From Gavia stellata (Eukaryota > Chordata > Aves > Gaviiformes > Gaviidae): a stretch of DNA of 64,000 bases. The stretch covers positions 112,050,334 through 112,114,333 of the forward strand of contig NC_082595.1 of NCBI RefSeq assembly GCF_030936135.1, written 5' to 3'. The position numbers and the translations under genes were made by a program. The notes under the pieces were generated by a model. It did not search any database and was not told the DNA's origin. It saw only the letters and a program-made list of their open reading frames with translations. Positions within the stretch are counted from its first letter, which is position 1. Each line of letters opens with the position of its first letter. Below are positions 6,725 to 49,800 of this stretch, in pieces.

Positions 6725-11495
<4,771 letters not shown>

Positions 11496-14635: not shown

Positions 14636-16814
14636 GTCCAGGCTCTTTCACCGGGTGGGGGGGAGCAGGGGGCTGCTTGCCCCAGTCCCCACCAAATCAG
14701 GGTTTCCCCACTTGCCCCACAGCCCCGGGCTGGGGCTTTGGTGCCAACCTGCCCATGGGCAGCTCCAGGGAGCGGCTATGTCCCCTGCTCTGGGGAACAC
14801 GGGGTGCAAGGTCTTGAGCTGGCCCCACGCAGCGCCTGCCTCAGCCCACACATGCCCCCGTAAAACGCTGCCAAGGGGACGGTGGTAAAATTTGGAAAGC
14901 AAAGTCAGGACACCCCCCGCCTGCTGCAGACCCCTTCCCCTGCCTGTCTCAGGTGTCCCCATCCGAGGGGATGGGGACAGGGATGGGGACAGGGCTACTT
15001 TGGGCAGGAGAGGTGCTCCTCCGACCGCAAAGGGATGGGAAACCCAGAGCTCAGCCCTGCTCCCCGACCTCCCGGGCGATGACCCAGCCCTCTCCCCAGA
15101 CCAGCCTCTCTCCTTCCTTCCTGATAGGAAATTTAATGCGCAACCTTCCTACAAATGAAGCCCAGGACTGCAATTTCCAGCCCTGGGGGACCTGCCCAAC
15201 AATTTCCTTCCTTTCCCCTGGGAGATAAATGAAGAGGCAGAGCCGGACATGGAGGGCACCTGAATTTGCTGCTGCTGCCTGATGCAGGAGCCCCATCCCG
15301 CCTGCATCCGTGTGACTGTCCCCGCCATCCTTGGGATGCTGAATACCAGAAATCCATGGGGAAGAGGACCACGGAGCTGGCAGCCCGCCATCCCACCACC
15401 CCAGCAGCAGCCGATGCCAAAGCCAGGCAGATACTTGGTTGTCCCCTCTCCAGACCCACGGCCACGAACACCTCACCGATGCAAACATCACATTGGGGTG
15501 ATCCAGATGTCTCATCGATGTCACGATTGCATCAAACCACCCCATTTTTTTAATCACCAATGTCATGATTGCATCAAATCACCCTGGCAAACCTCCCCGG
15601 CCCCGGAGAACCACGCTGCAGCCAGCGGTGCGATGCAAAGCCCTGTCCTTGTGCCACGGTGCAGAGCCCTGAGCCCATGGCCACGTCCCAAGGCTGCCTG
15701 CGAGGCCAAAGGGAGCGTCCGGTGTCGGACAGACCCCCGAAGCTGGGGAGATGGGGAGGGGGAAAGACGGAGTGATGGATGCCAGAGGGATGGGGAGCAG
15801 CTGGAAATGGTAAGGACCGCTCCTGGAGATCGATCCGGGCCCACCAAAGGAAGGGAATTAGGGAGAAGGATGAGTCGAGTAAGACCGTAGTGTATTAATC
15901 AGGGAAAAAAAGACAACCAACATTGATTTTTCTGGGGAGGAAAAAACGGAGCTGACTGCTGGGATGGTGGATTGAAGGCTGGGGGGGTGGTGGGAAGCAT
16001 CGTGGATGCCGGGGGGTTCATCCCCTTCGCTGGGCTCCTGATCAGGGTCAACTTTTGGAGGTGGAGGGGCAGTTAACGCCGCAGACAACCTCATCCATCC
16101 TCCTTTTCCCTTAGACAGCGGAGGATGGAGAGAAAACAGACGCGGAGATAACGCTGACGCCTGGCAGAGCGCAATGCATCTTTATTTCGCTGCCTGCAGC
16201 TCCCGCAGAAGCGCCGCTGCCACCCGGGTATTCCTGCCTCTTGCCCATCCTTGGGGTGCACCATGGATGTATTGGGGTGCCCCAAGCACGGCGTGCCGGG
16301 GTGGCCCTGCCCATTCCCTCCAGCCTCCCGGGAGAACCTCCGGGCTTACAAACACAGAAGGATTTTCTGCTTCCAGCTGTTTTCCCGCTGCCCGAACCTC
16401 AGTGGGTTGGGAACACTCGAGTTGCCAGCTTTGATTTATTGCTGGGCGGTTCATCTCCAGCCGCTCGATGCTGCTGGACCGCCAGCGAGGTGCAGCCGAG
16501 CCTCAAATTGCTGGGGTTAATTTTTAAGCCCCTCTGGGGAGCCCCAGGAGCCGGGTTCAGGCGAGGTGCCGGGTGTGAGGGCTTTGCTGAGGGCACGCGG
16601 GGCTGGCTAGCTGCGAAAAAAGGGAGCCTGCGTGGATAAAGGTCTTGCAGGGAGGAGCGAAGGGGTGCGGAGGTCTGCTGGGCGTGGGAAGGAGGGGGTT
16701 TCCCCCGGGCACAGGGCTGGGCACACACGGTGGCACCGGGCTCTGCTGCGTGATGGCAGAGCTCTCGCAGGATAAATGCATGGAGCATTTGGGGCTGGGG
16801 TTATGGGCATCGCG
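14636..16814. other. Intergenic stretch without a supported gene
   Basis: GC-rich, mixed sequence. Two minus-strand AATAAA hexamers (at 16186-16181 and 16440-16435) could serve the minus-strand gene ending at 17937, but nothing ties them to it. There are short repeated motifs near 15480-15590 (CGATTGCATCAAACCACC and its variant). No exon could be supported. Confidence 0.5.
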
Positions 16815-17735
16815 TGTGCAACGACATCACGTCTGCAATGGCATCAGGTGTGATGGCATCGCGTGGCATCGTGGGTGCAATGGCATCATGTCTGCAATGG
16901 CATCACGTGTGTGACGGCATCACACGTGCAATGGCATCACGTGTGATGGCATCACGTGGCATCGTGGGTGCAATGGCATCACGTCTGCAATGGCATCACG
17001 TGTGTGACGGCATCACATGTGCAATGGCATCACGTGTGCGATGGCATCACGTGTGTAATGGCACCGTGTGTGCAATGGCATTGTGTGTGTGACAGCATTG
17101 TGTGTGCAACGGCATCATGTGTGCAACAGCATCGCATGTGCGATGGCATCACGCGTGTGATGGCATCACATGTGCAATGGCATTGCATGTGTCACAGCAT
17201 CGTGTGTGCGATGGCATCATGTGTGTGATGGCATCACATGTGCAATGGCATTGCATGTGTCACAGCATCGTGTGTGCGATGGCATCGCGTGTGCGATGGC
17301 ATCATGTGTGTGATGGCATCACATGTGCAATGGCATTGCATGTGTCACAGCATCGTGTGTGCAATAGCATCGCGTGTGTGACAGCATCGTGTGTGCAATG
17401 GCATCGCGTGTGCGATGGCATCATGTGTGCAATGGCATTGTGTGTGTGACAGCATCGTGTGTGCAATGGCATCACATGTGCAATGGCATCGCATATGCAA
17501 TGGCATCATGTGTGTGATGGCATCACGTGTGTGATGGCATTGCATGTGTCACAGCATCGTGTGTGCGATGTCATCGCGTGTGTGACAGCATCGTGTGCGC
17601 AATGGCATCGTGTGTGTGATGGCATCACATGTGTGATGGCATCACATGTGTAATGGCATCGTGTGTGCAATGGCATCGTGTGTGCGACAGCATCGTGTGT
17701 GCGATGGCATCACGTGTGCGATGGCATCACGTAGC
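16815..17735. repeat. Minisatellite of about 18-bp units carrying many CACGTG E-boxes
   Basis: About fifty degenerate copies of a unit like ATGGCATCACGTGTGCA, interchanged with variants such as ATGGCATTGCATGTGTC and ACAGCATCGTGTGTGCA. A longer pattern (ATGGCATCACATGTGCAATGG followed by CATTGCATGTGTCACAGC) recurs near 17160, 17225 and 17310. Many copies contain TCACGTG. The array ends about 200 bp past the stop codon of the minus-strand gene at 17937. Open frames within it are artefacts. Confidence 0.93.
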
Positions 17736-17936: not shown

Positions 17937-19068
17937 CTAGGGCTCGGCGGCGGCGGCGGCGCGGGCGGCCGAGCTCTGCAGACGCCGGCTCAGCTCAGCG
18001 TGGAGGCGGCGGGCGGTGGCGTCGAGGGCCTGGGCCAGGCGGCCGGTGAGCCGTAGCATGTGGGCCACCACACGGACACCCTTCCGCAGCCTGGGCGGGG
18101 GGAGAGAGCAGGCTCAGTGTCCCCTCTGTCCCCCCCCAGCCTCCCCGCATGTGGAAGGTGATGCTGCAGCGCTGGGGGTCCCGGAGGGGGGTCCCCAGCC
18201 TGGGAGCGGAGGTACCCCGACCCCTCCATCCTGGCGAATGCTGCTCCATCATCACGTTGTGGCTCAGCTGCACTGGGGCACTGGTTGGGGAGTGGGTGTC
18301 GTGTCGTGTCCCCCCCCCAACATCCCACCCTGCCCTCAGAGGACCCCCCACCGGCCCCGCTGCGGGGGGTTAAGGGCAGGGACACACGCATGGGGATGTT
18401 AACGGCAGCGGTTTGCTGAGCATCCAAACCCCGCGTGTCACCTGAGAGCCACCACGAAGGCTGCGGGACCCTTGGGGACACCCAGACACCCCCCCCAAGG
18501 TGTCCGCAGCTTGGGGCTGGGTCCCACCCGTGGATCTCGGGGGATCAGCTGCATGGAGCATCTCCCCTGGTCCATCCCCTTCCCACGGCACTTACTTCTC
18601 CTTCTTCTCCGCCGTCTGTGGGTGATCGGCCTCGGCCACGTGAGCCTCCAGCTCCCTGCGGACATTTTCCAGGCTCTCCCGAAATTCCAGGTTGGCCTCA
18701 CGGATGGCGGGCAGCGCCTCGGTGATGACGTCCTGGTAGCGGGTCTGGTTGTCCTCCAGGGTGGCCGCCGTCTCCACGTCCTTCAGGCTGGCCTTGGTGT
18801 CCTGCAAGAGGTTCTTGAGATGATCCAGCTCATGGCCAGAGGTGGAAGGGGGTGGCCCACGGGGGCTGCAAGGGCTGGGGGTGTGGAAGGTGATGCCGCA
18901 GCGCTGGGGGTCCCGGAGGGGGTCCCCATCCTGGGCGAGGTGGTACCCCAACTCCTCCGTCCTGGCGCTGGGTGTCACCTCCTCTTCTGGTCCCCCCTGG
19001 GCGGTGGCGGGGGGGGCGAGGGCGCAGAGCCCCACCAGCAAGCACCAGCCGGGGCCCCCCAGGACCAT
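17937..19068 (-). CDS. Predicted small secreted coiled-coil protein, not recognised
   Basis: Two coding exons on the minus strand, 19068-18596 and 18090-17937, joined by a GT-AG intron whose phase closes (AA|G); 208 residues. The start sits in GACACCATGG, a strong Kozak context, directly after an acceptor (CCCCTGCAG), so an untranslated exon probably lies upstream. Residues 1-23 form a clear signal peptide (CLLVGLCALAPPATAQ). An acidic region follows, then a Cys pair in CGITFHTPSPC (57 and 67), a Pro-rich spacer, and a long charged helix from about HELDHLKNLLQDTKASLKDV. It has one N-glycosylation motif (DNQT) and a second amphipathic helix (HMLRLTGRLAQALDATARRL), ending in an Ala run. No membrane anchor is visible, so an extracellular oligomer is inferred. 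I do not recognise the family. The clean ORF, signal peptide and splice sites argue it is real. It lies between CHRNA2 and EPHX2, where I know of no human gene. Confidence 0.7.
18148..18236 (-). repeat. Intronic partial copy of coding exon (CGITFH region)
   Basis: About 88 bp in the intron of the minus-strand gene match 18881-18966 of its own coding exon at close to 90 percent by eye, with a one-base length difference. On the minus strand the copy can read DPQRCSITFH, against DPQRCGITFH in the exon. The copy ends about 60 bp from the last-exon acceptor. Confidence 0.8.
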
Positions 19069-19074
19069 GGTGTC

Positions 19075-20574
19075 CTGCAGGGGCAAAGAGAAATGGGGGG
19101 GTTGAGGCTGAGGCTGAGACACCCTCTGAGACCCTTTTAGGGTCCACCCCCATGGACCCCCCAGTTTGCACCAGCAAAATCCCCCAAGAACCCTTCTTTT
19201 TCCACGCATTTTTCTCTGGCTGCTGGGATTTGGGGGTGCTGTACCCCGGTCACCCCACATCATGGAGGACACCCCCCCGGGGATGCATTCTGCATCCCCC
19301 CCCCCAGCGCAGCACATGGAGCATAGCAATGGGGAAACTGAGGCACGGAGGGGGCATGGCAAGGGCTGGGGTGAGGCCGATCCTGCCGGGGGGCAGCTCG
19401 TCCCCCCCAACCCCCCCTCGGCAGCCATGGAAAAGCAGGAGGCCGCGGTGGGGGGGGCAGACAATACGGCTCTTTCAAAACCGCCACCGGAAAGCCTTGG
19501 CGCCGGGGCCGGGGGAGCGGGTGCCAGAGGCTGCCGACGCGGCGGGCGCGGGGGGCTCGGGGGGGGTCCCCACCAGCACCCCGCACCATCCCAGCCGGCC
19601 CTGAGCCCCTCTGCAGAGGGAAGGGGGGGGGTCCCACAGGCATCCAGGCTTTGTGCCAGCAACATGGGGTGCAATGAGCTTCCCAGGTCTCAGGCCAGCA
19701 CCTGGCTGGGGTGGGTGGTTTTCGCTTTGGAGCGAAGGGCTCCAAAAGCAGGGGGGGGGGGACGGCAGCTGGGGGACCCCCCGGCGGAGACCACAGCAGC
19801 ACCGCGGCCGAGCCCTGCCACGAGTTGGCCGGGTCTCAGAGGCGTAGCCGTGCTGGCATTTCGCTGGCACCAAGGCTGGGTTGTTCCTCCCGGCTCTTCC
19901 CACCGGAATTAGCGACAAGGCCAGCAAAATCCTTCCTTTTCCCCTTTTTTTTCCCCTCCCCAAAAATGCTCCCACCTTTTAGCCGGGGAGAAGCCGGGCT
20001 TGGCGTCACGGCGGCTGGGCCTCGGGGGGCTGCGGCCCCAGTTTGGGGGTGAGCGGGGGGCTCGCCGTGACGAGGAGGAAAACCCTCGGAGATCGGAGCC
20101 ATGCCAGCAGGCAGGGGAGGGGGCTTCAGCCGCTCACCCGGCGCTGGACCACCCCGGGAGGGTGCTGGGGGGTCCCCTGGGGGGTCCCGGGGAGAGCGGG
20201 AGGTTGGGGACGAGGGATGGGGGACACCCACCCCGGCAGCGGGATGCTGCCCGTAAATGCATGGCTTGTCGGGGCTTCAGCCCCCCGAAAATAACTCTGC
20301 CCCCTCCCCGATCGCCATCCCCGCAAGGCACAGCCCCCCCAGCTCTGCTGCGCTGTGCAGGGGTGCAGTTACCCCCCCATCTCCCCCCCAGGCTGCGGCC
20401 GAGCCAGCATCCCACCCCTTGGTTTGCAGGTGGGGAAACTGAGGCAGGGGGGGGCTGGGATTGCCTGCGAAACCGCTGCCGATCCCTCCCGCTCCCCCAT
20501 GCCCAGCTCACCGCTCGGCGACGCGGCCGTCCCGCCACGGCACTGCTGGCAGCTCCCCGAGGCGGGGCCGGCCC
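19075..20574. other. GC- and CpG-rich upstream region of the minus-strand gene
   Basis: Probably holds the promoter and an untranslated first exon of the minus-strand gene starting at 19068. It is CpG-rich around 19500-19570 and 19990-20110. It has poly-G/poly-C runs (for example near 19300, 19450 and 19750) that favour quadruplexes. I could not fix a transcription start or any coding exon. Confidence 0.4.
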
Positions 20575-22195
20575 ACGCGCACGCACACGCGTGGCCACGG
20601 GCACGGCCACAGCCACGGGCATGCCGTGTCTGGCACCCATCAGGCCAAGGCTGCTTTGGGGTGCATGGGGGGGGGGTGTCACACATGCCCCCCGCCCTGG
20701 GCTGCCTCTCCGGGGGGGGTTTCAGGATTGCTGAAATGGCCGGGCGGCGTGCACGCGTGTGCACATATGTGCTTGGCATGTAGGCGTGTGCTGAGCGTGC
20801 ATGTGCACGCTCGGTGCCCACACACCTGCCTGGTGGTGCACACCTGTGCTCAGCAGTGCACACACATGCTCAGCAGTGCACACGTGTGCTGAGCATCTGC
20901 GCGCATGCCTGGCAGCGCACACGTGTGTTGAGCGTGCACACAAGTGCTGAGCATGCACGCACATGCGTGGCTGTGCACACGCAGCCTCAGTGTGCACAGA
21001 CATGCTCAGAGACGCACACGCATGCTTAATGGTGCACACACATCCTCAGCAACGTGCCTGGTGGTGTGCATACATGCTCAGCATGCACACACGTGTTTCA
21101 CGTATGCACACACGTGTGTGTGCACGTATGTGCACATGTGCGTGCATGCATGTGTATGTGTGCATACACGTCTGCATGTGTGTTTATGCGCATGCTTGTG
21201 CGCGTGCATTTTTGCATGTCCATGTGTGCATGTATGTGTGCATGGTGCGTGCATGTAGGTGAGCACGTCTGCATGGTGCATGCATGTATGTGCGCACGTG
21301 TGCATATGTGTGCATATATGTGTGCATGCGTGCATGCATGTAGGTGCGCATGTGTGCATATGTGTGCATATATGTGTGCATGCGTGCATGCATGTAGGTG
21401 CGCACATGTGCACGTGTGCATATATACGTGCATGGCACATGCATGTAGGTGTGCACGTGTGCATGTGCATGCATATACTGTGCGTGCATGCATGCATGTA
21501 GGTGCGCATGTGTGCATATGTGTGCATATATGTGTGCATGTGTGCATGCATGTAGGTGCACACATGTGCATGTGTGCATATATACGTGCATGGTGCATGC
21601 ATGTAGGTGCGCACGTGTGCATGTGCATGCATATATGTGTGCGTGCATGCATGCATGTAGGTGCGCATGTGTGCATATGTGTGCATATATGTGTGCATGC
21701 GTGCATGCATGTAGGTGCACACGTGTGCACGTGTGCACATATACGTGCATGGTGCATGCATGTAGGTGCGCACATGTGCATGTGTATGCATATATGTGTG
21801 CGTGCGTGCATGCATGTAGGTGCGCATGTGTGCATATGTGTGCATATACGTGTGCATGCGTGCATGCATGTAGGTGCACACGTGTGCATATATGTGCGTA
21901 TATGCGTGCATGGTGCATGCATGTAGGTGCGCACATGTGCACATGTATGCATATATGTGTGCATGATGCATGCATGCAGGTGCGCACGTATGCATATGTG
22001 TGCACATATGTGTGCATCCGTGCACGCATGTAGGTGCGCACGTGCGCGTGTGTGTGCACATATGCGTGCATGCTGCACGCATGTAGGCGCGCACGTGCGC
22101 ATGCGTGTGCATGCGCTCGTGCATGTATGCAGGCGTGTGTGCGTGCATGTGTGTGCATGTGAGCGCGTGTGCGCGGACATGCGTGTGCACGCCTG
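20575..22195. repeat. TG/CA-rich minisatellite with higher-order repeat, alternating purine/pyrimidine
   Basis: The left part (to about 21050) is degenerate, with GTGCACAC and GTGCTGAGC units. From about 21230 it becomes a regular array whose roughly 54-bp unit contains CATGCATGTAGGTGCGCA and stretches such as GTGTGCATATATGTGTGCATG. Three such units form a higher-order repeat of about 160 bp: the junction TGGTGCATGC recurs at 21591, 21750 and 21911. Long open frames on both strands (Cys/His/Met/Val- or His/Thr-rich) are artefacts of the repeat. Confidence 0.94.
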
Positions 22196-22932: not shown

Positions 22933-25900
22933 GAAGCGACAATACTGTGTGTGCTGCCGCCGCCCGCGCGGGGTGTGCGCGGCTGGGGCCCCCCTAGCAG
23001 GAGGAGCGGGCTGGGTGTGGGGTGCAGGCTGGGCCCCCCCTGTCCTGGATGTGGGGTGCAAGTCGAGGTCCCTGTGTATATCTGGGGTGCAGGCTGGTGA
23101 CCTCCTGCCTGGATGTGGGGTGCAGGCTGGGTGGGGTCCTGTACTGGATGTGGGGTGTGGGGGGGTGGCCCTGTCCTGGATGCGGGGTGCAGGTCAGGGG
23201 TTAAAACTAATCCCCAGAGAGGCAGGATTGCCATAGAGGACGTTGGCAGAAGTGGTAAGAAGAGCAACTAATAATTAATCAAGCCGGATAATTAATTAAG
23301 CCCATCCCTGCCCCAGCGCTGAGACCGGACACAACTCAGTGCATGAGCCAGAGCTCAAACCCAAAGCGTCAGACCCCCGAGCGGATCCCAAACAGCCTCT
23401 CAAGTCCTGGTGAACCCTTTGCCCCATTTAATAGGGGGTGTTTGCGGATTAGTAATCCCAAAAGCTCCCAAACAGGAGTGGAACAGGTTCTGTCCGTTTG
23501 CAGCGCCCGACACGTCGGGATTTCCCGGCAGCGCGTGGGGTGTTAAAAAAAACCAGCAGGGAGTTAAAAAAAGAATAAAATATTGAATAACTAAATGCTG
23601 GAGGACGTGGAGCAGATGGAGCAATAAATTCCCAGATTATCAGGCCATCAAACATTTTTTTTGCTTCGCTTTATATTAAAAAAAAAACTGATGGCAATCC
23701 TGCTGGAACAGGTAAAGCCGCTTTATTTTTAACCGAGCTGCGTTTTTATCGACTCGGAGGAGCGCTTTGTCGTAAAGCCAGTGGCTGTAATCTTGTTTTA
23801 TTGCCGCTTGAGAAGGCCTTTTGTGATCTTGTGTTAGGGGCAAATTATTTTCCCTCAGCTACAGCTTACAAAATACCCCACTCCGCATTATTTCCTTTTT
23901 TTCTTTTTTAATTCCTGGCAAAGCTCCCTGCTCCTCTATCTGCAGGGCGAAGTAATTGAGCTGCCAGCGGAAACAAATGGGCAGCGATCGCCCGCTCCTG
24001 TAATGAAGTGATGCTCCGGTCCTCCATTGGAGGATGGAGCTCCGTATCCCCGGCACGGAGCATCCCCTTCCCCATAGTGCCCCAACACACCCCCCCGGTA
24101 TTGGGGTGTCCCCTCCACACCCCGACTGACCTCTCCTCTTTTGCCTGGCAGGAATTTCTTGCGACAGGTCATGTTTGCCGGCGGCTCCGACAGTCCTTAT
24201 GCCAAAGCCATGAGGGGACAGATCACCCTGTCCCAGGTGAGCCCTCGGGTACCAGTCGCGGAGCATCGCCGGCGGCTCGGATGCGGTTCGGGAAGGAGCC
24301 GACGGGACCATGCTCCAGGATGGGCTGCGCTTTAATTTTCGGGGAGTCGATGGAATGACGGCGTGGGTGTTTTCCAGCTCTTTTCGGAGATGGAAGAGGG
24401 CTGCAGGCAGCACGCCTCCGCCTCGGGCATCGCCTTGCCGCCCGCCTTCTCCGTCGCCCGAGCCTTCGAGGAGATGGCGGCCGAGGGGACGGTCAATGCC
24501 CCCCTTCTGCGGGCAGCAAGGGTGCTGCGGAGGAACGGTGGGTGCTGGGGGGCTGTTGAGCAAGAGGTGGTGGAGTAAGGGTGCTGCTCCCCTCCCGGGC
24601 AGGTGCCACGGGGGTCCCTGGTCGGTCCCACCACAGAGTCCCTGGTCGGTCCCACCATGGGGGTCCCTGCACGGTCCCTCACCGTCATCAAAGCGCTCTC
24701 TCAGCACCTCTCGGGAGATACTCCGAGCCCTGCTACCAAATCCATCACACACGTTAGCACCCGGCCAGCAATTAGCAGGACGCCGTAGCCCTTCGCCCCG
24801 CGCCGTGGCCGGTCCAGCGGCTCAGTCCTCAGCATCTCAGCGTGCCCGAGCTCCCGCTCACGTCCCGCTCGCGTTGGGACAGTCGAGCTTTGCTTTTCTG
24901 GAAGTACAAATTGGGCATAAGCTCCTGCTGAGCTTCCTTTTACCTCCTGCCAGCGTGTCCTGGTCCGGACAGAGCTTCACAAATCAGATTTTAGGCGTGT
25001 TAGTGTGTTATCGACATCACTCCCATCCTAAATCCAAAACACAGTGCTATACCAGCTACTAGGAAGAAAATTAACTCTATCCCGGGTGAAACCAGGACAG
25101 AAGGTCTGAGAAACGTGGCTGGGGAGGTGAAACCAAACGCTTGCGGGAGAGCCGGAGTGGGATAACCAGCGCTCCCTGCTCTGCCCTTCCCTAGGATTTA
25201 AGACCTGCGTCCTCACCAACAACTGGGTGGACGACAGCGCCGGGCGGCTCTTCACGGCCACGCTGATGAACCTGCTGCGCCGCCACTTCGACCTGGTGAT
25301 CGAGTCCTGCCGGCTCGGAGCGCGGAAGCCGGATCCCGAGATCTACGCCTACGCCCTGGATGCGCTACGGGTGAAGCCGCAGGAGGTACGGCCACCACCC
25401 CAAAAATAGGGCATGGCGGGGGGGGCCCTGTGGGCACCCAAAGCCCAGCGACTGCCCTTTCCCGGGGCGCTGAGCCCGGCTCTCACGGGCGTATCTCCAG
25501 GTCATCCTCCTGGACGACATCGGGGAGAACTTGAAGCCGGCCCAAGAGATGGGCATGGCCACCGTCCTCGTCAGGGACACCGAAACCGTCCTGAAGGAGC
25601 TGGAGGAGCTCTCGGGCGTCCAGGCATGTAGAGGTGGTCGGGGTCCCCTCTCTCCCCTGCTCTCCTGGGGATCCCTGGAGAGCTGGGAGGGATGGGCTCG
25701 GGCTTCTGGGTCTTGCCGTGATGCGGTGCTGGTGCAGGACTTGTGGGTGGCTTTGGAAACGAAGGGGACGGGGGCTGTGATCTCCTGCCCGCCCCGTGGT
25801 GTCCTCATCCCCGGGACCTGCTGAGCCGTGTCCATCTCAAACGCACGGGTGTCCCACCAGCGGCGGGGCGGGGGGGTGTCCCGTGGAGCTCCAGCCTTGC

Positions 25901-28900: not shown

Positions 28901-31900
28901 TTGAAATGTTTAATTAAGTCAGAGTAAATTGCGCCGGGGGATCAGGTAACGCCTGTTGCTTGGGGGGAAAAAAAGGAAAAAACCAAAAAAAGGGGGAAAA
29001 AAGGAAAATATTGCTGTTTTCTGATCTGTTTGCTGCTTCGGAGGAAGGCAAATCGCCTCTCGGGTGCTGCTTTTTGGGGTGCAGCCGCGGGGGCGCGGGC
29101 TCACGGCCCCCCTCCCCGCAGGGCATCCCGCAGGTTGTGCTGGTCGGCCACGACTGGGGCGGTGCCGTGGTCTGGAACATGGCTCTCTTCTACCCCGAGA
29201 GGGTGAGGTGGGTCCTTGGGGACCGGCCGTACCCCTCCCCGCATCCCCCCCAGGGGCATGGGGTACCCCGGATCCTATCCTGTCCCTACAGCAAAGCCCT
29301 GGCTCACGCTGGGCACCCCAAATCCGGGTGCCACGCTGACTCTGTCCCCCCCCCCATGATGTCCCAGAGCCGTGGCCTCGCTGAACACCCCGTACCGACC
29401 CGCCGACCCCACCGTGGACATCGTGGAGAAGATGAAGACCTATCCCACCTTTGATTACCAGTTCTACTTCCAGGAGCCGGTGAGTCCAGAACCACCAATT
29501 TTATCCTTCACCCCTCTTTTGGGGCTTACACCCCCCCGGGGTACGGGGACGTGCCTGTGTCGGGGTCCCCAGCTCATGGCCGGGCATCGCCTGCCCCATA
29601 GCCGGGTGCCAAACCGTGGGGCTCTCGCTGTCACCCCGGCTGCAAATGGGTTGTGATCCCCCTGCCAGACCTTGTTCCCTCGGCAAAAAACCATCCCCAT
29701 CCTCCAGCCGAGCCCCGATGGGCGGCAGGATCCGGCCCCGGGGTGGGTTGGGTCCCTGGGGAGGGTTGGCATCACCCGCGGTGCTCCCTCGCCCCCCTGT
29801 GCAGGGCGTCGCAGAGGCAGAGCTCGAGAAGGACGTAGGCCGGACCCTGAAGGTCCTGATCCGCTCCACGCGCCCGGAGGTAGGTGTGGGGCTGAGGGTG
29901 GACCTGGGGCGGGAGCAGAGGGCTTCGCAGCCTGCCCATGGCCAACCCAGCCTGATGTCCTCTCCAAGCCCTGCTAGCCTTGTTGGGGCTCTGCCTGTGG
30001 CACCCGCTCTCCTTCCACCTCGCCTGTGCCAGGAGCCAAAAGCTTCGGGAGTGGCTTTGCAGTGGCCCCCAGTGACCCTCAGGCACGCCCCACCCCGTGT
30101 CTGCCATCCTTTTGCTACCTGTCCGCAGCAAAGTCTGCAGTCAGCCATCAGTAGGGACCAGAGTGAACGCATCCTTGTGAGCAGCGGAGCAGGGCCCACA
30201 CCTCTTTAGGACTCAAAGCTGACCCTGACTAAGGATCGAGAAGACCTCTAGAAGGCTGTGCTGCCTGGTGGGGGGAGAGCCAGCCCAGGGAACAGCAAAT
30301 TTGTGGGGTGACTGTCTCGGCGTGGCCTGGCAGGGGCTCCTGCTCTCCCCCTGCCCTCGCAGTGCCAGTGCCGCTCGCTTCCTTAACCCCTGCAAATGTT
30401 AATGTCTCGCTTCAGGGTGAAAACCTTTGAGGTTTAAAATAACAGCGCCCCGGGAGCACGCAGGAGGCCATGCCTCGCCAGCGGCATCCTTCTGCCATCC
30501 CCGCCGGCTGCTCCCGGCTCTGTGTCCCAGGGCTGCGCGGTTGGTTCCTGCATCCCTCGGGGTGCAGCGATGCTCCATGCCCGCTCCCGGCTCTGTGTCC
30601 CAGGGCTGCGTGGTCGGTTCCTGCATCCCTCGGGGTGCAGCGATGCTCCATGCCCGCTCCCGGCTCTGTGTCCCAGGGCTGCGTGGTCGGTTCCTGCATC
30701 CCTCGGGATGCAGTGATGCTCCGTGCCCGCTCCCGGCTCTGTGTCCCAGGGCTGCGTGGTCGGTTCCTGCATCGCTCGGGATGCAGTGATGCTCCGTGCC
30801 CGCTCCCGGCTCTGTGTCCCAGGGCTGCGCAGTCGGTTCCTGCATCCCTCGGGATGCAGCGATGCTCTGTGCCTGCTCCCGGCTCTGTGTCCCAGGGCTG
30901 CGCGGTCGGTTCCTACATCCCTCGGGATGCAGTGATGCTCCGTGCCCACTCCCGGCTCTGTGTCCCAGGGCTGCGTGGTCAGTTCCTGCATCCCTCGGGA
31001 TGCAGTGATGCTCCGTGCCCACTCCCGGCTCTGTGTCCCAGGGCTGCGCAGTCGGTTCCTGCATCCCTCGGGATGCAGCGATGCTCGATGTTGGCTCCGG
31101 GCGCGGAGGGGAGCCCCAAACCTGCCTGGCAGCCACGGGGAGCCCCCCCGGGATGAGTTTCCCCCCTGGGTGCGGTGCTGCTCTCTGCCCTCGGTCCCCT
31201 CTCTCCGCAGGACCGCCTGCCCTTCGCGCTCAACTTCCACCGGGTCCGGGAGCGAGGTAAGGGGGGGAGACCTCGCTGTGGGGCGGGGATGCTGCGGGGG
31301 GGGATGCCACGGGTGGGACCTGGCAGCGGTGCTGTGCCTCTCGTTGCAGGGGGGCTGCTGGTGGGCTTCCCTGAAAACCCCCCCGCCAGCCAGATCCTGC
31401 ACGGCCCCGAGCTACAATACTACATCCAGCGCTTCCAGAAATCCGGCTTCAGGTAGGGCAGGAGCCCGGGGGGCTGGTGGGGTACCCCCCTGCTGCAGAA
31501 GGGGGACCCCCAAACCCACCGAGGCTTTGCATTATAACCCCAAGAAGGGGCGAGGCTGGCCGGGGGAGGCTGCTTTTCCCTTGCAGGCTCTTCCCATGCC
31601 GGCTGTGCCGCGGGCAGCGGGATGGTCCCCGCCGTGGCGTCGGCAGGAGCTGAGTCCCAGCATCTCCACCCCGTTCCCGTCTCTCCCAGTGGCCCCTTGA
31701 ACTGGTACCGCAACATGCGACCCAACTGGCGCTGGGCACTCTCTGCCAAGGACAGGAAGGTGGGGACTGATCCTGCCCTGCGGGGAGCATTTGCAGACCC
31801 CACCTTGTCACCTGTGTCCCCTATAGATCACAATGCCAGCGCTGATGGTCACGGCCGGGAAGGACATGGTGCTGCATCCCAGCATGAGCAGGGGCATGGA

Positions 31901-34014: not shown

Positions 34015-35195
34015 TCAGCCCCGTGGGTGCACGCATCTTTGGTGCACGTGCATCCCCTGTTCCCCGGGTGCACGCATCCTTGGTCCCCTGGGTGCACACA
34101 GCCTCAGTCCCCCGTCTGCATGTTCTCCTTGGCTCCTCAGATGCTCATACACTTGGTCCCCCCCAGTGCACATGGCCTCCGTCCCCTCGGTGCACGCATC
34201 CTCAGTGCCCAGGGTGCATGTGTTCCTGGTCCCCCCCGGGTGCATGCATCCTCTGTCCCTGGGGTGCCCGTCTCCTTGGCCCCCCCAGTGTATGCATCCC
34301 CAGTCTCCAGGACGCACATGTCCCTGGTCCCCCAGGTGCGTACATCCCTGGTCTCTGGGGTGCATGTGTCCCCAGTCCCCTGGTGCATACGTCCTCTGAC
34401 CCTGGGGTGCACGTGTCCCTGGTCCCCCGGGTGCATGCGTCCTCTGTCCCTGGGGTGCGCTTGTCCTCGGTCCCCCCGATGCATGCATCCCCAGTCCCCT
34501 GGTGCATGCATCCTCTGACCCTGGGGTGCATGTGTCCCTGGTCCCCCAGCTGCATGCATCCTCTGTCCCTGGGGTGTGCCCATCTCCTTGGCCCCCCTGG
34601 TGTATGCATCCCCAGTCCCCAGGATGCACATGTCCCTGGTCCCCCGCGTGCGTACATACCTGGTCTCTGGGGTGCCTGTGTCCTCAGTCCCCTGGTGCAT
34701 GCATCCTCTGACCCTCGGGTGCACGTGTCCTTGGTCCCCCAGGTGCACATGTCCTCAGTGCCCGGGGTGCATGTGTCCCTTGTCCCCCCACAGCTGCATG
34801 CGTCCTCTATCCCTGGGGTGCACATGTCCTTGTCCCCCCCCGGTGTATGCATCCCCAGTCCCCAGGATGCACATGTCCCTGGTCCCCCGCGTGCGTATAT
34901 CCCTGGTCTCTGGGGTGCATGTATCCCTGGTCCCCCTGGTGCGTGCATCCCCAGTCCCCTGGGTGCATGCATCCTCTGACCCTGGGGTGCACACGTCCTC
35001 AGTGCCTGGGGTGCACGTGTCCCTGGTCCCCCGGGTGCACGCACCCTCAGTCCCCTGGATGCACGTGCCCTTGGCTCCTCGGGTACACGCGTGCTTGCCC
35101 CCCCCCCCAGGTGCACATGGCCTCAGTCCCTTGGGTGCATGCACCCTCCATCCCTGGGATGCACGTGTCCTCGGGTGCACGCATCCTCGGCACAT
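34015..35195. repeat. Large minisatellite, GGGGTGCACGTGTCCCTGGTCCCC units
   Basis: About 1.2 kb of degenerate units near 28-31 bp, each with a GGGTGCA(C/T)G core followed by TCC(C/T)(T/C)(G/A)GTCCCC. Longer blocks recur, for example CCCAGTCCC(C/T)(A)GGA(T/C)GCACATGTCCCTGGTCCCCC near 34300, 34615 and 34857. It produces a 435-codon + frame and minus-strand frames of 200-300 codons, all artefacts. Confidence 0.94.
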
Positions 35196-36643: not shown

Positions 36644-37428
36644 TGCTGGATGGGGTGCACAGGGTGCAGGATGCGCACGTGGGGTGCAGGGTGCACACAC
36701 GGGGTGCAAGGTGCACACATGGGGTGCACGGTGTGCACGCTGGGTGCAAGATGCACACATAGGGTGCAGGGTGCGCACACGGGGTGCAAGATGCACACAT
36801 GGGGCGCAGAGTGTGCACGTGGAGTGCAGGGTGCGGGCACTGGGGTGCAGGGTGCACTCACAGGGTGCAGCGTGCATGCACGGAGTGCAGGGTGCACATG
36901 CAGGGTGCAGGGTGCACACACAGAGTGCACACGGAGTGTAGGGTGCGGCATCAGGGTGAAGGGTGCACACATACGGTGCAAGGTGCACACATGGGGTGCA
37001 GGCACAGGGGTGCAGGGTGCAGGTACAGGGGTGCAGGGTGCACACACGGGGTGCACAGTGCAAGTACTGGGGTGCAGCGTTCACACACGTGATGCAAAGT
37101 GCACACACAGGGTGCAAGGTGCAGGCACTGGGGATGTAGGGTGCACACGCAGGATGCTGGGTGCACACACAGGGTGCAGGGTACACACATGGGGTGCAGG
37201 GTGCAGGCACCAGAATGTAGGGTGCACACATGGGGTGCAGGGCGCATGCATGGAGTGCAGGGTGTGGGCATCAGGGTGCAGGGTGCACACGTATGGTGCA
37301 GGGTGCACACGTATGGTGCAGGGTGCACACGCAGGGCGCAGGGTACACGCATGGGGTGCAGGGCGCACACACGGGGTGCAGGGTGCAGGCACCGGGGTGC
37401 ACACAGGGGATGCAGGGTGCAGGCAGAG
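36644..37428. repeat. Minisatellite, GGGGTGCAGGGTGCACACA units
   Basis: About 40 degenerate units of 15-21 bp based on TGGGGTGCAGGGTGCACACA. Variants with GGTGCAGGCACTGGGG alternate. Long His/Cys/Gly-rich (+) and Cys/Thr/Pro-rich (-) frames are artefacts. Confidence 0.95.
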
Positions 37429-40825: not shown

Positions 40826-43800
40826 GTAAGAAAAAGCCAAGAGGGGAAATTCCCAGTTTTTGGGGTGGGAAGGGTGGTCCAGGCAGCGTGGAGCCATGCT
40901 CCATGGTTGGGGCTGGTGGGGAGGTTTTGTCCACCTTTGATATGGATTTAATAACCAACGCCACCGTGATGCGAAATAGGAAAGGTGTCTTGGAAAAGAG
41001 AGAGGGAAAGAAAGGCAACGTATTCCCTGGATAAATCAGGTCAGGCTCTGGCTGCTGAGCAGAGGTGTTTTCTAACCCATGGGTTTTCAATTTCCTCCAT
41101 TTTGTTCTTTTGGGGTTTTTTTTTCATTTTTTCTGCCTCCCGCCCTCTGTACCCTGGCTCACAGACCAGCTCCGGGTTTTAACTTGCATGGGGGATGCTG
41201 TGGGGCAGCCCCAGCCCCACCTCCCCCCAGCCCCGAGGGCTCCCTGCTGCTATCTGGGCTATCTGCAATAGCTTCCTGATGGCCCTGGCTCCGGGCAGTG
41301 TCACCTCCCTGGGCAGGGTAATGGGCCATCCAGTGTCCCCACCCTGCCCAGCCCCTAAAAGCAGCCTGGGGGGGCTGATGTGGTGGCGCAAGGGGGTGGC
41401 AGGGGGGAGCGATGCTGCAGGCACCCCTGGGAGAGCCCCTTCTGCACCCCCCGGAGAAGTCTGGCCGGTTTTGAGATCTGCTCTTTGGATCGGTGTTGAA
41501 CCCATCAAAGAGGGGGAGAAGGAAAATGAGGGGAGGGCAGAGGAGAGAGAGCCCGGGTGGGAAGGTGGAAGGTGAGGGGTTTGCTGATGGAGAGGAGGCT
41601 GGAAGGAATGGGGGGAAGGAGGTGGCAAGGGAATAAATCATTCCCTGCCGCCAAGGTGGGGCGCGTGTTGGTGGGGCAGCACGTTGGATCCGCTCCTGCC
41701 TGGGGTAGACGGATTCACCATCTTCTCCGGAGCTTGGAGCCCAACCCCACACCAGGTCCTCCCTTGCCCAAGCCCCAGCTGGGCTGGCCACGGCCAGGGA
41801 GAAACTGTCCCCCCCATTCAGGACCCATCCGAACCACCCTGGGGATGCCCCACCGGGGGTCAACCTCCTGCCTGGAGATAAGATGGGGCTGCGGCTTTTG
41901 GCTGCACCCCTCCATGCCAGGCCTGGGGACAATGTCTCAGGGTGGATGGCTGAGGTTGGAGGGAGATCCCAACCTGGTTCCAGTCGGCCTCTCATGATGA
42001 GGCCATCTGGGGACACGGGGACATGAGGCCATGAGGTAGGTATGGGTGCTGGGACCAGGTCTGAGAGGAGACCAGAGCCAAAGAGGCCATGCAAACTGAG
42101 ACGACCCCAGCACACATCATGCTGTAGGAGGAAGGGATGGGCTGCGCTCAAGGGAGATGTCTCAAACACACCGGGGCATCCTCCCACTTCTCCCCGCTGA
42201 CTGCAAAGGGAGCCCGGGCTGACTTGCTCACATGGAGACATCTCTGCTCTACGGACTCAAGGGGTTGAGATGAACCTCTATGTCCATAAATAATTAATCC
42301 TTTTGGAAATCTGACTCTGGTACAGTGGTCTTGGCAGACGAAGGATGGGCTGTGTGAAAAAGCAGGGGAGGCTCTGGCTTCCTTCTGCTTTAGCTCTTGG
42401 TTTTGGTCCAGGTTCACGGCCAAGGAGGAGTCAAGTTCCAAAACTGGGCCAAGACCTATGGCTCCTCTCCAGAGCTGTACTTCCAGCCCACCTCGGTGGA
42501 GGAGATCCGGGAGGTAAGGAGGGTGCTTCCAGGAGACAACCCATTAGAAATGAAGAGGACAAAAGGCCGGGAAGGGCTGTGACGCTCCATCGTGTTCAGT
42601 CAGAGAGGTCACAGATGGTGACAGCATGAGTCCTTCCCTCAGCCCTGGGAGATGGCCCATCCTACTGAACTGCACGTGTTCTCCAGCAGACGTGTCGAAC
42701 ACCTAAAAGGTGCAGAAAACCATCACGCCTGGCCCCAGCTGGACTCTGTTCCTTGGGCATCAGCATCTGGCATGCTTCTGGGGTCCCTGCCTGCCCCAGC
42801 TGCCATGCTGAGGGGTGGGAGTCCTGTGTCACTTTTGTCACCCTAGAGATGCCTCTGTCACCCTAGGGTGTCTCAGGTGGGCATCGCCTCTTTTGAGGTC
42901 ATAGAATGGTTTGGGTTGGAAGGAAACTTTAAAGTTCATCTAGTCCAACCCCCAAGGATGACCCCAAGGGCTGTCTTAGGAGGTGTCTGGGCTCTAAGGG
43001 TGGTTTTAACCTCAGATGATGAGTTGTCCAAGTAAATGGATGTCAACCACGGGTGAGATTTTAGCTTGGGATGTCTCGCAGTGCCTTTGGCACCGCCCTT
43101 AGCACACGGCTTTGAGGAAGGTGTTGGATGCTCAGGGCCGCATGTTGTCTCTGCAGATCCTGGATATGGCCAGGCAGCGGGACAAGAGGGTGAAGGTGGT
43201 GGGGGGTGGCCACTCTCCTTCGGACATCGCCTGCACCGACGACTTCATGATCCAGATGGGGAAGATGAACAGGGTCCTCAAGGTGAGACCTACTTCTGGG
43301 AGGTGGCGTGGTGGCCCTGAAACGTGGTGGCACCCCTGTTCATGAGGCCACCGAGGGCAGGGAGACCAACACTGCCATACCCAGGGTGAGAGGCGAAAGG
43401 ATGGAGAGGCTTTCCTCTCCTCACAGCCAGGAGTTTTCCCAAACCAGAACCTGAAATGCTGCTGCAAGAATGGGGAATGGGAATTTTCCAGGTGTAAAAG
43501 CATCCCTTGTGCACATGGAGCAGCTATAAACATGCAAAGAAGTGATGTCTTCCCAGCGTGCCTTCAGCGAGGTCTTACCCTCGGCACGTTGTCCTCATCA
43601 CAGCGGGGTCTGCTGGGTGGGGAGGAGGTACCTGGCAGGATCACCTTTCACGGCTGGCTTGTGTGTACGTGCGCAGCTGACGATGAAAAATCCTGACTGC
43701 AGCAGCGTATTCTGAGAGCTGGATCATTACCGGTAATTAACAGCAATAATTAATTAAGGAACGGCTCTCTCCCTGACAGCTCTGTCTATCAGAAGTGGGA

Positions 43801-46800
43801 TGAAGGGCTCCTAATGGTAATAGGCTGTCCTTCCACCAGGAGCTGGCTGAAGCTGGCTGAGCAAGGCGGGAGGGCAGAGCACAGAGGTTTGCTGAAGGTA
43901 GAGCTTTGCTGGGGGGGTGTCTTCTCCCTTGCATTGACCAACACCTGGGAGAAGCTATGGAAGAGGTCACGCACCCCTGAGACTGAGGAGAGCAGAGGGG
44001 AGCGGGGTCTGGACCAGGCGCAGGAGCCAGTGGCACCGTTGGGTTGGGTGAGGTTTGGGTTGGGTGAAGGTCTGAAAGATGCAGCAGTTCGGGATGGTGG
44101 TATGCGGCTCTCCCGTATAGACATTACGAACTGCATCGGTAAGAGCAGAGGTGTTTTCCATGGGGTGTTTCTCTTCCAAGCTGTGTGGCCTTCCCCTCTC
44201 CCCTCCCATCCCATCCTTTGCAGGTGGACAAGGAGAAGCAGCAAGTGACAGTGGAAGGTGGGATTTTCCTCTCAGATCTGAACGTCGAGCTGAGCAAGCA
44301 CGGGCTGGCCCTGGCCAAGTGAGTGGGACACGTGCGTGGGGCCGTCCTTGGGTGTCCTCCCATCCTTGTCCCAGATCAAGTGCTGGGACATGGCAAAACG
44401 GGGATGTTTGAAGAGCTTTTACTGCAGAATGGGGGTGTTTACTCCAGGATCTGGTGTTTCATCAGGGTCCTGCAGACCACAGGTCGACCCCCTCCATGAT
44501 GGAGTAGCTGATCCTGCCTCGGAGCAGGACGTTGGACAAGGGGAGGGTTTATCCCCACACCAACACTATTATTCTCACTGCACCCACCAGGTTGGTCCTT
44601 CCCATGTCACGAGGGAAAACTGCTCTCCCTGGCCCTAAAAAGAAGAGAGCACCCCTCCTGGGGATGACTTGGATGGGGCAGAGGCTGACAGCAGGCAGCT
44701 TCTGGCACAGGAGGCTGATGGTAGATGAAATCAGGCTAGAAATGAGTTTTTGATGGTGAAGGACACTTAGCCATTGGAATATCTTAGCAGGATGCATGGG
44801 AGAACCTTTGCTCTGCGTTGCTTTGGGATGTCTGGTGTCCCCAGAAGAGGAGGTGGAAGTGATGGGCTGGGGGTCCGCGGCAATCTGGGGGCAGAGGATG
44901 GGACATCCCGAGCTGATCACAGCTGATTCCTCTGCCTCCAACACGGATGGTTCTCCCTTGCAGAGGGTGCCCTGCCAAGGGCTTGGGGACAGCCACGTTC
45001 AGGTAGGGGTTTGCAAAAGAAACAGTCGTGGAGAGCATTTCTCACACTCAATCTCTTTTATTTGCTGACCTCAGGGAAGAAATTGCTCTTTAATTACAGC
45101 CTAGCTCAATATCTGCGTTCTTCAGTCAATACAAGCGATCAGTTGGTCAGAGCCCTGGCCAGGGCTGGGGTGAGGGTTCAGAGAAATAAGCCCCACCTGA
45201 GCAGATGGCCAACGGTGCGGGTGGGGTGAGCAGGGCTTGTTGATGGAGAAGGAATCCACCGAGGCTTGCAACGGCCGTAGAAACCACGTCCGGGTCAGGA
45301 GGTCCCTGCGCCCCAGCTGTTGGAAGCTGGAGGAGTATTTTGGGGAAATGACAGGAACAGCGCACCGTTTGCTGTAACCTGCTACCATCCCCACGTGCCC
45401 ACCTTGGCCATAGTTGGAGGGACAGACCTCGGTCTGCAGACCTCATGCTTGTACGTGCTGCTTCCAGCCCTGCTCCGCAGAGATGTTTCTGGGGTAAACC
45501 CGGGTTCCTCTCCCCTTGCTTTAACTGCGTATGGGATGGATGTCTCCACCCCAGTGAATCCCTCCAGGCTGACGGGGAGAGATGGGGACTGGTGAGATGG
45601 GACACAGCCAAGTTGGCCGTGGTGACCTGCGCTCGCCAGACGCCTCTTCCGTCCCGTGGACTATAGTGGCATCCTGATAGATATGTCCCATGGAGATGTG
45701 CATACGTGGCCAACATACCCACCCATTGCTGCAGGGTACCCTGAAGGGTGGAAAACCCTGCTCGTTGGGGAAGGGGGCATGTCCTGGGGGTCTCTGTGAA
45801 GGGTCTGCATGCGGTGTAACGCCTGGCATGGCAGGCTGTGCCCCATGCCTGTCCCACACACTCAGGTCCTCATGCAGACCCTTCATCTGCCCCCAGCTTA
45901 GGAGCCGTTTCTGAGGTGGCAGCAGCCGGTGTGATCGGGACGGGGACGCACAACACCGGGATCAAGCACGGCATCCTCTCCACCCAGGTGAGACATGAGT
46001 TGGGAGCGTGTCTCTGCATGGACATCAGCATCTTCAGGGCTCCAGGGGAGATATCCCATCACCCGGTCTGGGTCTGGTGTGCCCAGCCCTGGGGTAAGGA
46101 AGGAGCGCACTGTGCCCAGCAAGCAGGAAGGGTCCTGCCCTCCCCGGGATGGGGCTGCAATGGAGGACCCCCAAGTCCTCCATGTACACTTGGAATCACA
46201 GAATGGTTTGGGCTGGAAGGGACCTTTAAAGGTCATCTAGTCCAACCCCCTGCCATGAGCAGGGACATCTCCAACCAGACCAGGTTGCTCAGAGCCCCGT
46301 CCTGGAATGTTTCCAGGAATGGGGCATCTACCACCTCTCTGGGTAATCTGTGTCAGGGTTTCATCACCCTCAGTGTGAACAATTTCTTCCTTAAGACCTC
46401 CTCATCTACCAGCCAAAACATGATCCAGCTCAAAACTCCTCTGTCCCTGTGTTTTATGGTCTTGTAATCCAATGCATAAACTCTGTACCAAAGGGAAAGC
46501 AGTTCTTGTGTTGGAGCCCCCCAAAACCAAATCTCTGCAGGGCCCAGGTCTATTTTAAACTAGGCAGTTACGAAAATCCTTCACTCCTGGCTCAAATCCT
46601 GTATGGCGATTCCACCGAGGGTTATGGAGAAGTGAAATCATTTGGGGGAGATTTACTTCTTTATTTGATGGCTTTTCCTAACATCCCCCAGGTAGAGAAG
46701 GATCCTTTTATGTCACTACATCAAAGGCAGCAGGAGAAGGGCTGGTGGAGCCAAGCTCAGCAGAAAGCACCCTGTGATGCTGGTTGTGGTATGGGGGTCT

Positions 46801-49800
46801 CCCTGCTTAGCCCCCAGCCATAAGGTTTGGGTTGGATGCAGAGTCCTGGCACGGAGATGGGACGCATTGAACACTTGCCGAAGCTTTCCTTCCCTCTCGG
46901 CAGGTCGTAGCACTCACATTGCTGACAGCCTCGGGGGAGATCCTGGAGTGCTCCGAGTCCATCAATGCGGACATCTTCCAGGCTGCCCGCCTGCACCTCG
47001 GCTGCCTGGGCGTCGTGCTCACCGTCACCTTCCAGTGCGTGCCCCAGTTCCACCTGCACGAGGTGGCCTTCCCCTCCACCCTCACCGAGGTACGACCTGG
47101 GTGATGCTTCAAAGCCTCCTTGGGGATAAGCAAAGTTCTCGGCGAGGTGACATGGTCGGAGGGAGACTGGGAAGTGGTTACGCTCGGGTAGAAGATCCCA
47201 CAGGTGTGTGTAGGTTGCCCTCCTTGTGCATCTTCATGGCGCGCTTCACGGCGTCCTTTGAGCTGGAAACAACTCCAGGGTGACAAAGGAGAGGAAGGAA
47301 AAGCCATCTTTCTTAGCAAACGCCATTTTAGCTTCCCATAGGTGGGAACAGCATCTTCTGAGAGCAGAGAGGTGCAGGTAGTGGGGTCAGGAGGAGAGGT
47401 ACTCGTGAGTGCCACCTCTGTGCCACGTAAGGCATGGGTGCTCATGCCCTGCAGCAAGACATGCGTCGCATCGCGCAGTTGACATTCAGGAGCGAAGCAG
47501 GGCTTGGGGGTGCAGCCTGTCGCGTGGTCGCAGGCTGAGCCAGCGGGGTGGTGGGAAATGGGGGTGCTGAGCCCCGTTGTGCTGTGGGAAAGGCGTTTGC
47601 TTCGTTCCCAGGCGCAGAGGTGAGGGCTGAGTGTGCTCTGGGAGCTTTGCTGGCCACAAAATCTGGGAGGAGGCTGGGTGGGGAAGCCCAGGGTGCTGTG
47701 AGTCTGCCATGAGGAGTTCTTCAATCCTCACAAAAAAGCAGGTGGGACCACTGCACCTCGCCCTGGGACCCTCTGCAGCCACCCCTCTGCGTCCAGCCTG
47801 GGGGAGCTGGGCAGGGAGGGAGAGCTACGGGGAAAGACACGGAGAAGAAAGTCGTTTCCTTTACTTTTTATCCCTGCTGGGTTTTGAGAACTGCAAGGCA
47901 CCATCTTTGGGAGAAATTGTGCCCATTCTCAGCTCCGCATCTGGCCCAGAACAGCTCAGGGGTGTGAAGGTGACGTGAAACCTCACCTCTTCCATCACTG
48001 CCATGCTCACCCCTGAGCTGCTCCCAGCCTCCTCTTTTAAAACTGCTCTGTATTGATGCAGATCTTTGCATTTATCCAGCCTGAGATTCAAATAGCTGAT
48101 TTTACTGTCCCGGACCAGCCTCCGTGCAGCCTCGGGGTGGCTCACAGCTGCGGGAGAAGGCTGGCGGCTTCCAGTGTCCTGGAACCTGCCAAAGACTTTC
48201 TGTGCTCACCGTGGACGGTGGAGAGTGACCCTGAGCTGGGACATGGCTGTGTCCTTCAGAGGCATCCTCTGGGTCCCAGCAGAGGAGATGGGACCACCGT
48301 GCTGGGACCACCGTGCTGCGGGAGGCTGGTATGGGAGGGCTGGCTGCCTGCTCTCCTGGGCGTGATCCCAGCTCGGAGTGGATGCGTTGGCATGGGGTAC
48401 GTTGCAAACCTGAGCTCTAGGTGAGCAGAGGGCTCCTGCTCACAAGAAACCTCCTGGCTGGGCTTGGAGGTTGCAGAGAAGAGGGTGTTGGCCTCTTCTC
48501 CCAAGTGACGAGTGACAGGACAAGAGGAAATGGCCCCAAGTTGCGCCAGGGGAGGTTCAGGCTGGATATTAGGAAAAATTTCTTCACTGAGAGAGTGGTG
48601 AGACACTGGAACAGGCTGCCCAGGGAGGTGGTGGAGTCACCACCCCTGGAGGTGTTCAAGGAACGTGTGGACGTGGCACTGTGGGACATGGTTTAGTGGG
48701 CATGGTGGTGTTTGCTCGTTGATGGTTGGACTCGATGATCTTACAGGTCTTTTCCAACCTTAGTGATCCTGTGATTCTGTGAGTCAGCCGGCGGGAGCTG
48801 CGTGCCACCGGTGGGACCGAGGCAGGGGAGAGAGGAGGGTGAAAATGCTTCTCCTCCTCTTCTTAATGTCACCTCTGATTCAGGTTTGGGGCTGTCAAGG
48901 TGCTTGCCCTCTGGAAGGACAGCCAGTGCCCTCTTTAGGGACAAGGCTGGGCTACGAGACCCCTGTCAGTGTCCCCGCCTCTTGACCTCTCTGCAGCATC
49001 ATCTTCACATCTCAGCATCGATTGTCCCTTGCCTGACTCAGCCCGGAGGTGACGGAAATTGGACCACCTCCTCCAGCTGTGGTCTATCCCTTGCGTACAA
49101 CCCCATGGCTTTTAAACTGTTCCCCCGTCTCGTGAGCAATGACTGAGCCTCGCTGCAGGCAGGGATAAGCGAGGGGAAGAGCAGCCGCAGCGGTGGGGAG
49201 CTGCTCCGGGCTTGGACGCGTGCCTGGGCTGTGCAATGCCGGCAGTCCCACCGGAGCCAGGATGGAGGTTTGCCCATAGCCGTCAGCTTCATCTTCCCTG
49301 GGCTGCCTCTGAGCTGCTGCAGGACTGAGCACGGAGGCTCCAGTGCAATTGAGTTAGAGATGTTGAAGGAGCCTGTGGGCATCAGTGCTTGCTTCTGGCC
49401 ATGGAAAACGTCACTGGGAGATGGATCAGCCAACGCCTCTGCTCCGTTTAACCCGGTGTTTGCAGGCGCCGGCAGGTCAGCAGAGATCTGGTAACTTCAG
49501 GCACGCATGACTAAGCCTAATGCAGATTTAATATTCCAGCTGGAGAAAATTGCCCTTGCTGGAAATCCTGGGCTGGTCTGATGAGCTGACGTGCTGCCTG
49601 GACTAAGCAAGAAGAGGGAGAAGACTGTGCCGGCATCCCCAGAGGCAGGCAGTGCCTAGCTGGGTCCCGGCGGAGAGGAGCAGCGTCCCGCAGGGCATGG
49701 CTGCTCCCACGAGCCGTGTGCTCACTGAGGAGGTGCCGTCTCCCATCTCCTTGTCTCCTCCTGCTCGGCAAACTGAGAGCCTTGCTTTTTCCAGCGACAG

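Follow-up and report, generated by a model that had tools for sequence, protein, structure and literature searches.

The interval between the genes CHRNA2 and EPHX2 in Gavia stellata raises the question of whether it harbors a gene of its own and, if so, what type of protein this gene encodes. The initial annotation of this DNA proposed an unrecognized gene for a secreted coiled-coil protein, composed of two coding exons on the minus strand. Here, we evaluated this proposal within the 64,000-nucleotide stretch that surrounds the locus (referred to as the window). The combined data make us confident that the candidate is a real protein-coding gene.

Architecture of the locus and its neighbors

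The elements of the candidate gene and its surroundings are:

16435..16440, minus strand: first AATAAA downstream of the stop codon (speculative)
17937..18090, minus strand: final coding exon, with a helical stretch that is basic and amphipathic (residues ~158-203), followed by the stop codon
18091..18595, minus strand: intron, GT-AG, phase 2
18150..18236, minus strand: degenerate copy of part of exon 1, inside the intron (source, exon-1 bases 18882-18967)
18596..19074, minus strand: exon 1; coding from 19068 to 18596 (codons 1-157 plus the first two bases of codon 158); signal peptide (residues 1-23), Pro-rich tail with Cys57 and Cys67, and a helical stretch from residue 78
19975..19984, minus strand: GGCTAAAAGG, which may be TATA-like or belong to a 5' UTR exon (speculative)

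The coding parts, exon 1 (18596-19068) and exon 2 (17937-18090), have matching phases and together yield 208 codons and a stop codon. Translation would start at the ATG at 19068, found in the context GACACCATGG; the acceptor lies six bases before this codon, reads ATTTCTCTTTGCCCCTGCAG, and places the beginning of the exon at 19074. The frame is open from the ATG to the donor GAA/GTAAGT, where the last exon base is 18596. The second acceptor, CCCGCCCAG/GCT, defines 18090 as the first base of exon 2 (CTCCCCCCGCCCAG is the acceptor sequence running into this exon), which is closed by a TAG at 17939-17937. Scored with vertebrate consensus tables, and ranked among all AG or GT sites that the window contains on its two strands, the first acceptor is found in the top 0.1%, the donor in the top 0.6%, and the second acceptor in the top 0.8%; for comparison, a CHRNA2 donor and a CHRNA2 acceptor are found in the top 0.8% and 3.8%, respectively. 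The exon and intron boundaries given in the initial annotation were thus reproduced to the base, as were the strong Kozak start behind an acceptor and the single GT-AG intron with a closing phase.

The surrounding genes have database matches. The plus strand carries the end of PTK2B up to position 3788, which is matched in the PDB by protein tyrosine kinase 2 beta (E 3.6e-33). On the minus strand lies the gene for an alpha subunit of the nicotinic receptor, with matches to 93 PDB sequences; among the 60 of these 93 that are listed, the best match is alpha-4 (E 3.2e-145), while the alpha-2 chain, in which less of the protein is represented, matches with E 3.4e-70. We refer to this gene as CHRNA2 because of the gene order. 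One of its exons, 7380-8474 on the minus strand, contains a long run of glutamates in what would by position be the cytoplasmic loop. The start of EPHX2 is placed at 22733 on the plus strand by a protein motif, and epoxide hydrolase (E 5.1e-16) as well as bifunctional epoxide hydrolase 2 (E 5.3e-15) are matched by the stretch 25200-25385. EPHX2 is followed by a gene for a GULO-type oxidase (Pfam FAD_binding_4 and ALO), of which several exons are found in 42430-59213 on the plus strand, the final one closing with a stop codon; whether this gene is complete would matter for the ability of the species to make vitamin C. In profile and sequence checks, matches were obtained for one stretch each of PTK2B, the nicotinic receptor and EPHX2 and for two stretches of the GULO-type oxidase, and a sixth neighbor stretch (EPHX2) had no Pfam match. 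In addition, the segment 60302-61312 on the minus strand is an open reverse-transcriptase stretch (Pfam PF00078), presumably from a CR1 element, and a short piece at 58412-58507 on the plus strand resembles it by eye.

The candidate is oriented divergently from EPHX2, with a distance of 3.7 kb between the start codons. Upstream of exon 1, the hints of a promoter or a 5' UTR are limited to two TATA-like TAAAAG elements, at 19981 and 19139, and a fair donor starting at 19975, at which GGCTAAAAGG would end if it is part of a 5' UTR exon. For any one transcript, this reading of GGCTAAAAGG and its reading as a TATA element are mutually exclusive. The CpG observed/expected ratio is 0.36-0.53 over 19001-20500, as compared to 0.95 at the EPHX2 start, and the upstream region contains no CpG-rich stretch. 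On the other side of the gene, the minus strand has no AATAAA over the ~1.5 kb between the stop codon and 16440; if the one at 16435..16440 were used, which is speculative, the 3' UTR would include a large minisatellite at 16806-17732, which begins 205 bases past the stop codon. Similar large arrays are found within and between genes at 21222-22112, 30510-31086, 34049-35071 and 36658-37387, with 95% matches in the 73-bp array at 30510.

The copy of exon 1 found within the intron differs from its source by eight mismatches and one indel over 86 aligned bases, and its local alignment score is 126, while 300 shuffles gave at most 35. The mismatches fall on exon codon positions 1, 2 and 3 in two, six and zero cases, respectively; with only eight changes, nothing is built on this distribution. 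Use of the copy as an alternative exon was rejected, because inspection by eye revealed no GT donor before exon 2 and the indel breaks the frame. The initial annotation had noted neither this copy nor the lack of AATAAA past the stop codon.

Coding signal

The codon model was trained on 14 exon segments of the neighboring genes, chosen by protein motifs of PTK2B, CHRNA2, EPHX2 and GULO, while the candidate was left out; it is a small model, and its background of intergenic and intron DNA includes some exons (in 44000-56000). In this model exon 1 scores 56.3 bits and ranks second in the window, behind the large CHRNA2 exon. Exon 2 scores 24.4 bits, i.e., rank 19 among the 45 segments printed, and the 17 other segments above it are, by our attribution, 15 exons of the four known genes (10 of which overlap training segments), an antisense shadow of CHRNA2 and a reverse-transcriptase element. 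In 60 Markov-resampled windows the highest segment score was 28.8 bits, and the best score per window had a median of 15.5 bits; segments as strong as exon 2 appeared at 0.017 per window, i.e., one in 60 windows. When the frame was fixed, exon 1 scored 51.4 bits, of which codons 79-157 supply 45.0 and the part before the helix adds little.

The third-position GC content is 0.87 in exon 1 and 0.90 in exon 2, within the 0.83-0.97 of the 14 neighbor segments, and it reaches 1.0 inside the signal peptide. First- and second-position GC in exon 2 (0.86 and 0.60) is higher than in every training segment (maximum 0.74 and 0.50, n = 14). Overall, the codon statistics resemble those of the neighboring exons and they are accompanied by valid splice sites with a closing phase.

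A scan of both strands for signal-peptide-like starts, using a hydropathy scale to define a hydrophobic N-terminus followed by a small-residue cleavage rule, yielded 66 starts in the window. Only two of these have both a full Kozak sequence and at least 100 open codons, namely the start of EPHX2 itself and that of the candidate, and the candidate alone combines a strong Kozak sequence, at least 100 open codons and a preceding acceptor.

The predicted protein and the explanations of the locus

Residues 1-23 constitute a predicted signal peptide, as assessed from simple hydropathy and the small-residue rule, with zero charged residues; the product is therefore very probably secreted. The following segment, residues 24-78, is acidic (net charge -4) and Pro-rich (10 of 55 residues), and it contains Cys57 and Cys67 in the motif CGITFHTPSPC with C-x9-C spacing. 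Residues 79-148 are also acidic (net -9) and include a sequon, Asn107-Gln-Thr (NQT), while residues 158-208 are basic (net +8). The signal peptide, the Cys pair and the N-glycosylation sequon that the initial annotation had noted are all present in the 208-residue protein.

The same hydropathy scale was used to determine the periodicity of four stretches of our choice, for which the uncorrected shuffle P values are 0.0085 (2000 shuffles) for a period of 3.46 in residues 79-148, 0.014 for a peak at 3.4 in the sub-stretch 79-117, 0.086 for 3.64 in the sub-stretch 118-148, and 0.0145 for 3.6 in residues 158-200. The value for residues 79-148 fits the heptad pattern of a coiled coil, and here the heptad power is 65.2 as compared to 20.0 for 11-residue repeats; the periods of 118-148 and 158-200 are longer, and in the latter stretch the power is 62.1 and 52.3 at periods 3.6 to 3.67, as compared to 49.7 at the heptad period of 3.5. 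An AlphaFold2 model of the exon-1 protein alone, obtained from a single sequence and a single chain, displays helices at residues 78-100 and 104-147. In this model 39 of the 157 residues have a pLDDT of at least 90 and the maximum over 10-residue blocks is 98, while the tail is of low confidence with block means of 47-61 up to residue 80; overall, the mean pLDDT is 67.1 and the pTM 0.32. Both the periodicity and the modeled exon-1 helices agree with the earlier description of two long amphipathic helices.

Searches for relatives of the protein were essentially negative. The 208-residue protein gave four matches in Pfam (T2SSF, ApoLp-III, Goodbye and CorA, E 0.028 to 3), each under its cutoff. 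These were rejected: residues 79-208 in reversed order reach E 0.0018 (phasin) and also match Apolipoprotein with E 0.018, and since the reversed control outscores the real protein, the weak matches look like an effect of composition. When the parts were searched separately in Pfam, the tail and helix 1 matched no family and helix 2 gave two weak matches (E 0.057 and 0.23). Matches in NCBIfam (E 0.12 and above), among PDB sequences (best E 0.18 with 208 residues) and among PDB folds with Foldseek (best E 2.4, using the low-confidence model of exon 1 only) were set aside; neither the sequence of the 208-residue protein nor the fold of the exon-1 model placed the product in a family represented in the PDB. 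In IMG/VR, five stretches fit a pattern with the exon-1 protein, of which none was confirmed as a relative. The open-access PMC literature describes, among the matches listed, no gene in the CHRNA2-EPHX2 interval. Hence, the term "unrecognized" used in the initial annotation holds only insofar as Pfam, NCBIfam and PDB yielded no relative, and a bird annotation may well carry the candidate as an uncharacterized locus.

Several explanations other than a new gene were considered. That the frame is a chance opening in GC-rich noncoding DNA is very improbable. Such a frame stays open over 209 codons in 8.6% of 3000 simulated sequences of the same composition (P 0.086), so that openness in itself is weak evidence for a gene, but the codon score is nearly twice the maximum of the 60 resampled windows and the combination of signal peptide, Kozak sequence, open frame and acceptor occurs nowhere else in the window. 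An assignment of the two exons to an alternative 5' part of CHRNA2, which would agree with their location upstream of that gene on the same strand, is hardly credible, as the candidate carries its own stop codon. In addition, CHRNA2 seems to own a short signal-peptide exon (ATG at 11495, donor CGG/GTAAGG, found by eye), from which we conclude that the candidate is a separate gene. Overall, the analysis supports the earlier proposal of a gene that is distinct from CHRNA2 and EPHX2 and encodes a secretory signal and long amphipathic helices.

A gene that has recently died, or is dying, in this lineage could still appear intact. The degenerate exon-1 copy in the intron, the large minisatellite shortly after the stop codon and the lack of AATAAA near it would be consistent with such a pseudogene, but the 208-codon frame is unbroken and both codon bias and splice sites are strong, which makes this scenario quite improbable. 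It is less easily dismissed, though in our view still unlikely, that the gene is a known one, i.e., a rapidly evolving ortholog or paralog of some secreted helical protein of vertebrates (e.g., apolipoprotein-like or clusterin-like) that profile searches can no longer identify, or a bird locus already annotated under a name or as uncharacterized. The weak apolipophorin III match in Pfam (E 0.043) and the periodicity of helix 2, which suits 3.6 to 3.67 no worse than the heptad, point in this direction, as does the position of clusterin (CLU) in the GULO block that adjoins EPHX2 in the mammals described in PMC11169010. These points are countered by the reversed control, which beats the real protein in Pfam, by the poor top match among PDB sequences, and by the preference of residues 79-148 for heptads over 11-residue repeats.

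The explanation that we favor, and consider reasonably likely, is that of a small, GC-rich, real gene on the minus strand whose product is a secreted helical oligomer with a tail that is free for partners. The protein would enter the secretory pathway by means of its signal peptide, probably cleaved after Ala23, which would leave a mature protein of ~185 residues with an acidic, Pro-rich N-terminal tail. Here, Cys57 and Cys67 could form a small disulfide loop or join subunits. The tail would be followed by the acidic stretch 79-148, with one potential N-glycosylation site, and the basic stretch 158-208; these acidic and basic helices most likely pack against one another, in the same chain or across chains, to form a coiled coil or a helical bundle. 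Such packing suggests a secreted protein that acts as a helical oligomer, where the tail would remain outside the oligomer to bind partners, presumably in an extracellular role. Several observations weigh against this explanation: the databases searched gave no relative, AATAAA is absent for ~1.5 kb after the stop codon, no CpG-rich stretch lies upstream, the codon signal ahead of the helices is weak, exon 2 exceeds all training segments in first- and second-position GC, and the structural model covers exon 1 from a single sequence. More tentatively, the protein could be the first of a new family of small, secreted helical oligomers, which birds (perhaps all sauropsids) have retained in the CHRNA2-EPHX2 interval and mammals lack, and which was missed because its sequence is GC-rich.

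If conserved, the gene would extend the gene set of birds by an uncharacterized secreted protein, with neighbors that serve cholinergic signaling, lipid-epoxide metabolism and vitamin C metabolism, and it would be a further case of GC-rich sequence that hides bird genes. If confined to a few species, it would instead be a candidate for a new gene whose history can be read, because a partial copy of an exon resides in the gene's own intron.

Comparison with known systems

Secreted proteins that oligomerize through coiled-coil regions include olfactomedins (N-terminal parts), angiopoietin-like proteins, pentraxin-3 (N-terminus) and collectins (necks). The candidate shares with these regions a signal peptide, a short Cys-bearing N-terminal part and long amphipathic helices, but differs from them in that its frame contains no globular C-terminal domain and its sequence has no match in Pfam or PDB.

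The predicted secretion and the amphipathic helices are also shared with the exchangeable apolipoproteins and apolipophorin III (PF01442, PF07464). In contrast to a member of the apolipophorin III family, the candidate matches PF07464 below its reversed control, at 14.4 bits as compared to a gathering score of 36.3, and PF01442 is not listed for the real protein. Furthermore, residues 79-148 display heptad rather than 11-residue periodicity, while residues 158-200 do not discriminate between the two.

A third comparison is with the "hidden" genes of birds, a subset of GC-rich genes that, according to PMC4539667, are often missing from databases. As described there, these genes were recognized through their orthology to known vertebrate genes, whereas the candidate is without a known ortholog. 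It resembles them in the GC content of its coding sequence, for which the means of the codon-position values are ~0.69 (exon 1) and ~0.79 (exon 2), and in the presence of repeats nearby. Because this subset of GC-rich bird genes is often missing, an overlooked or merely "uncharacterized" gene at this locus is plausible rather than extraordinary.
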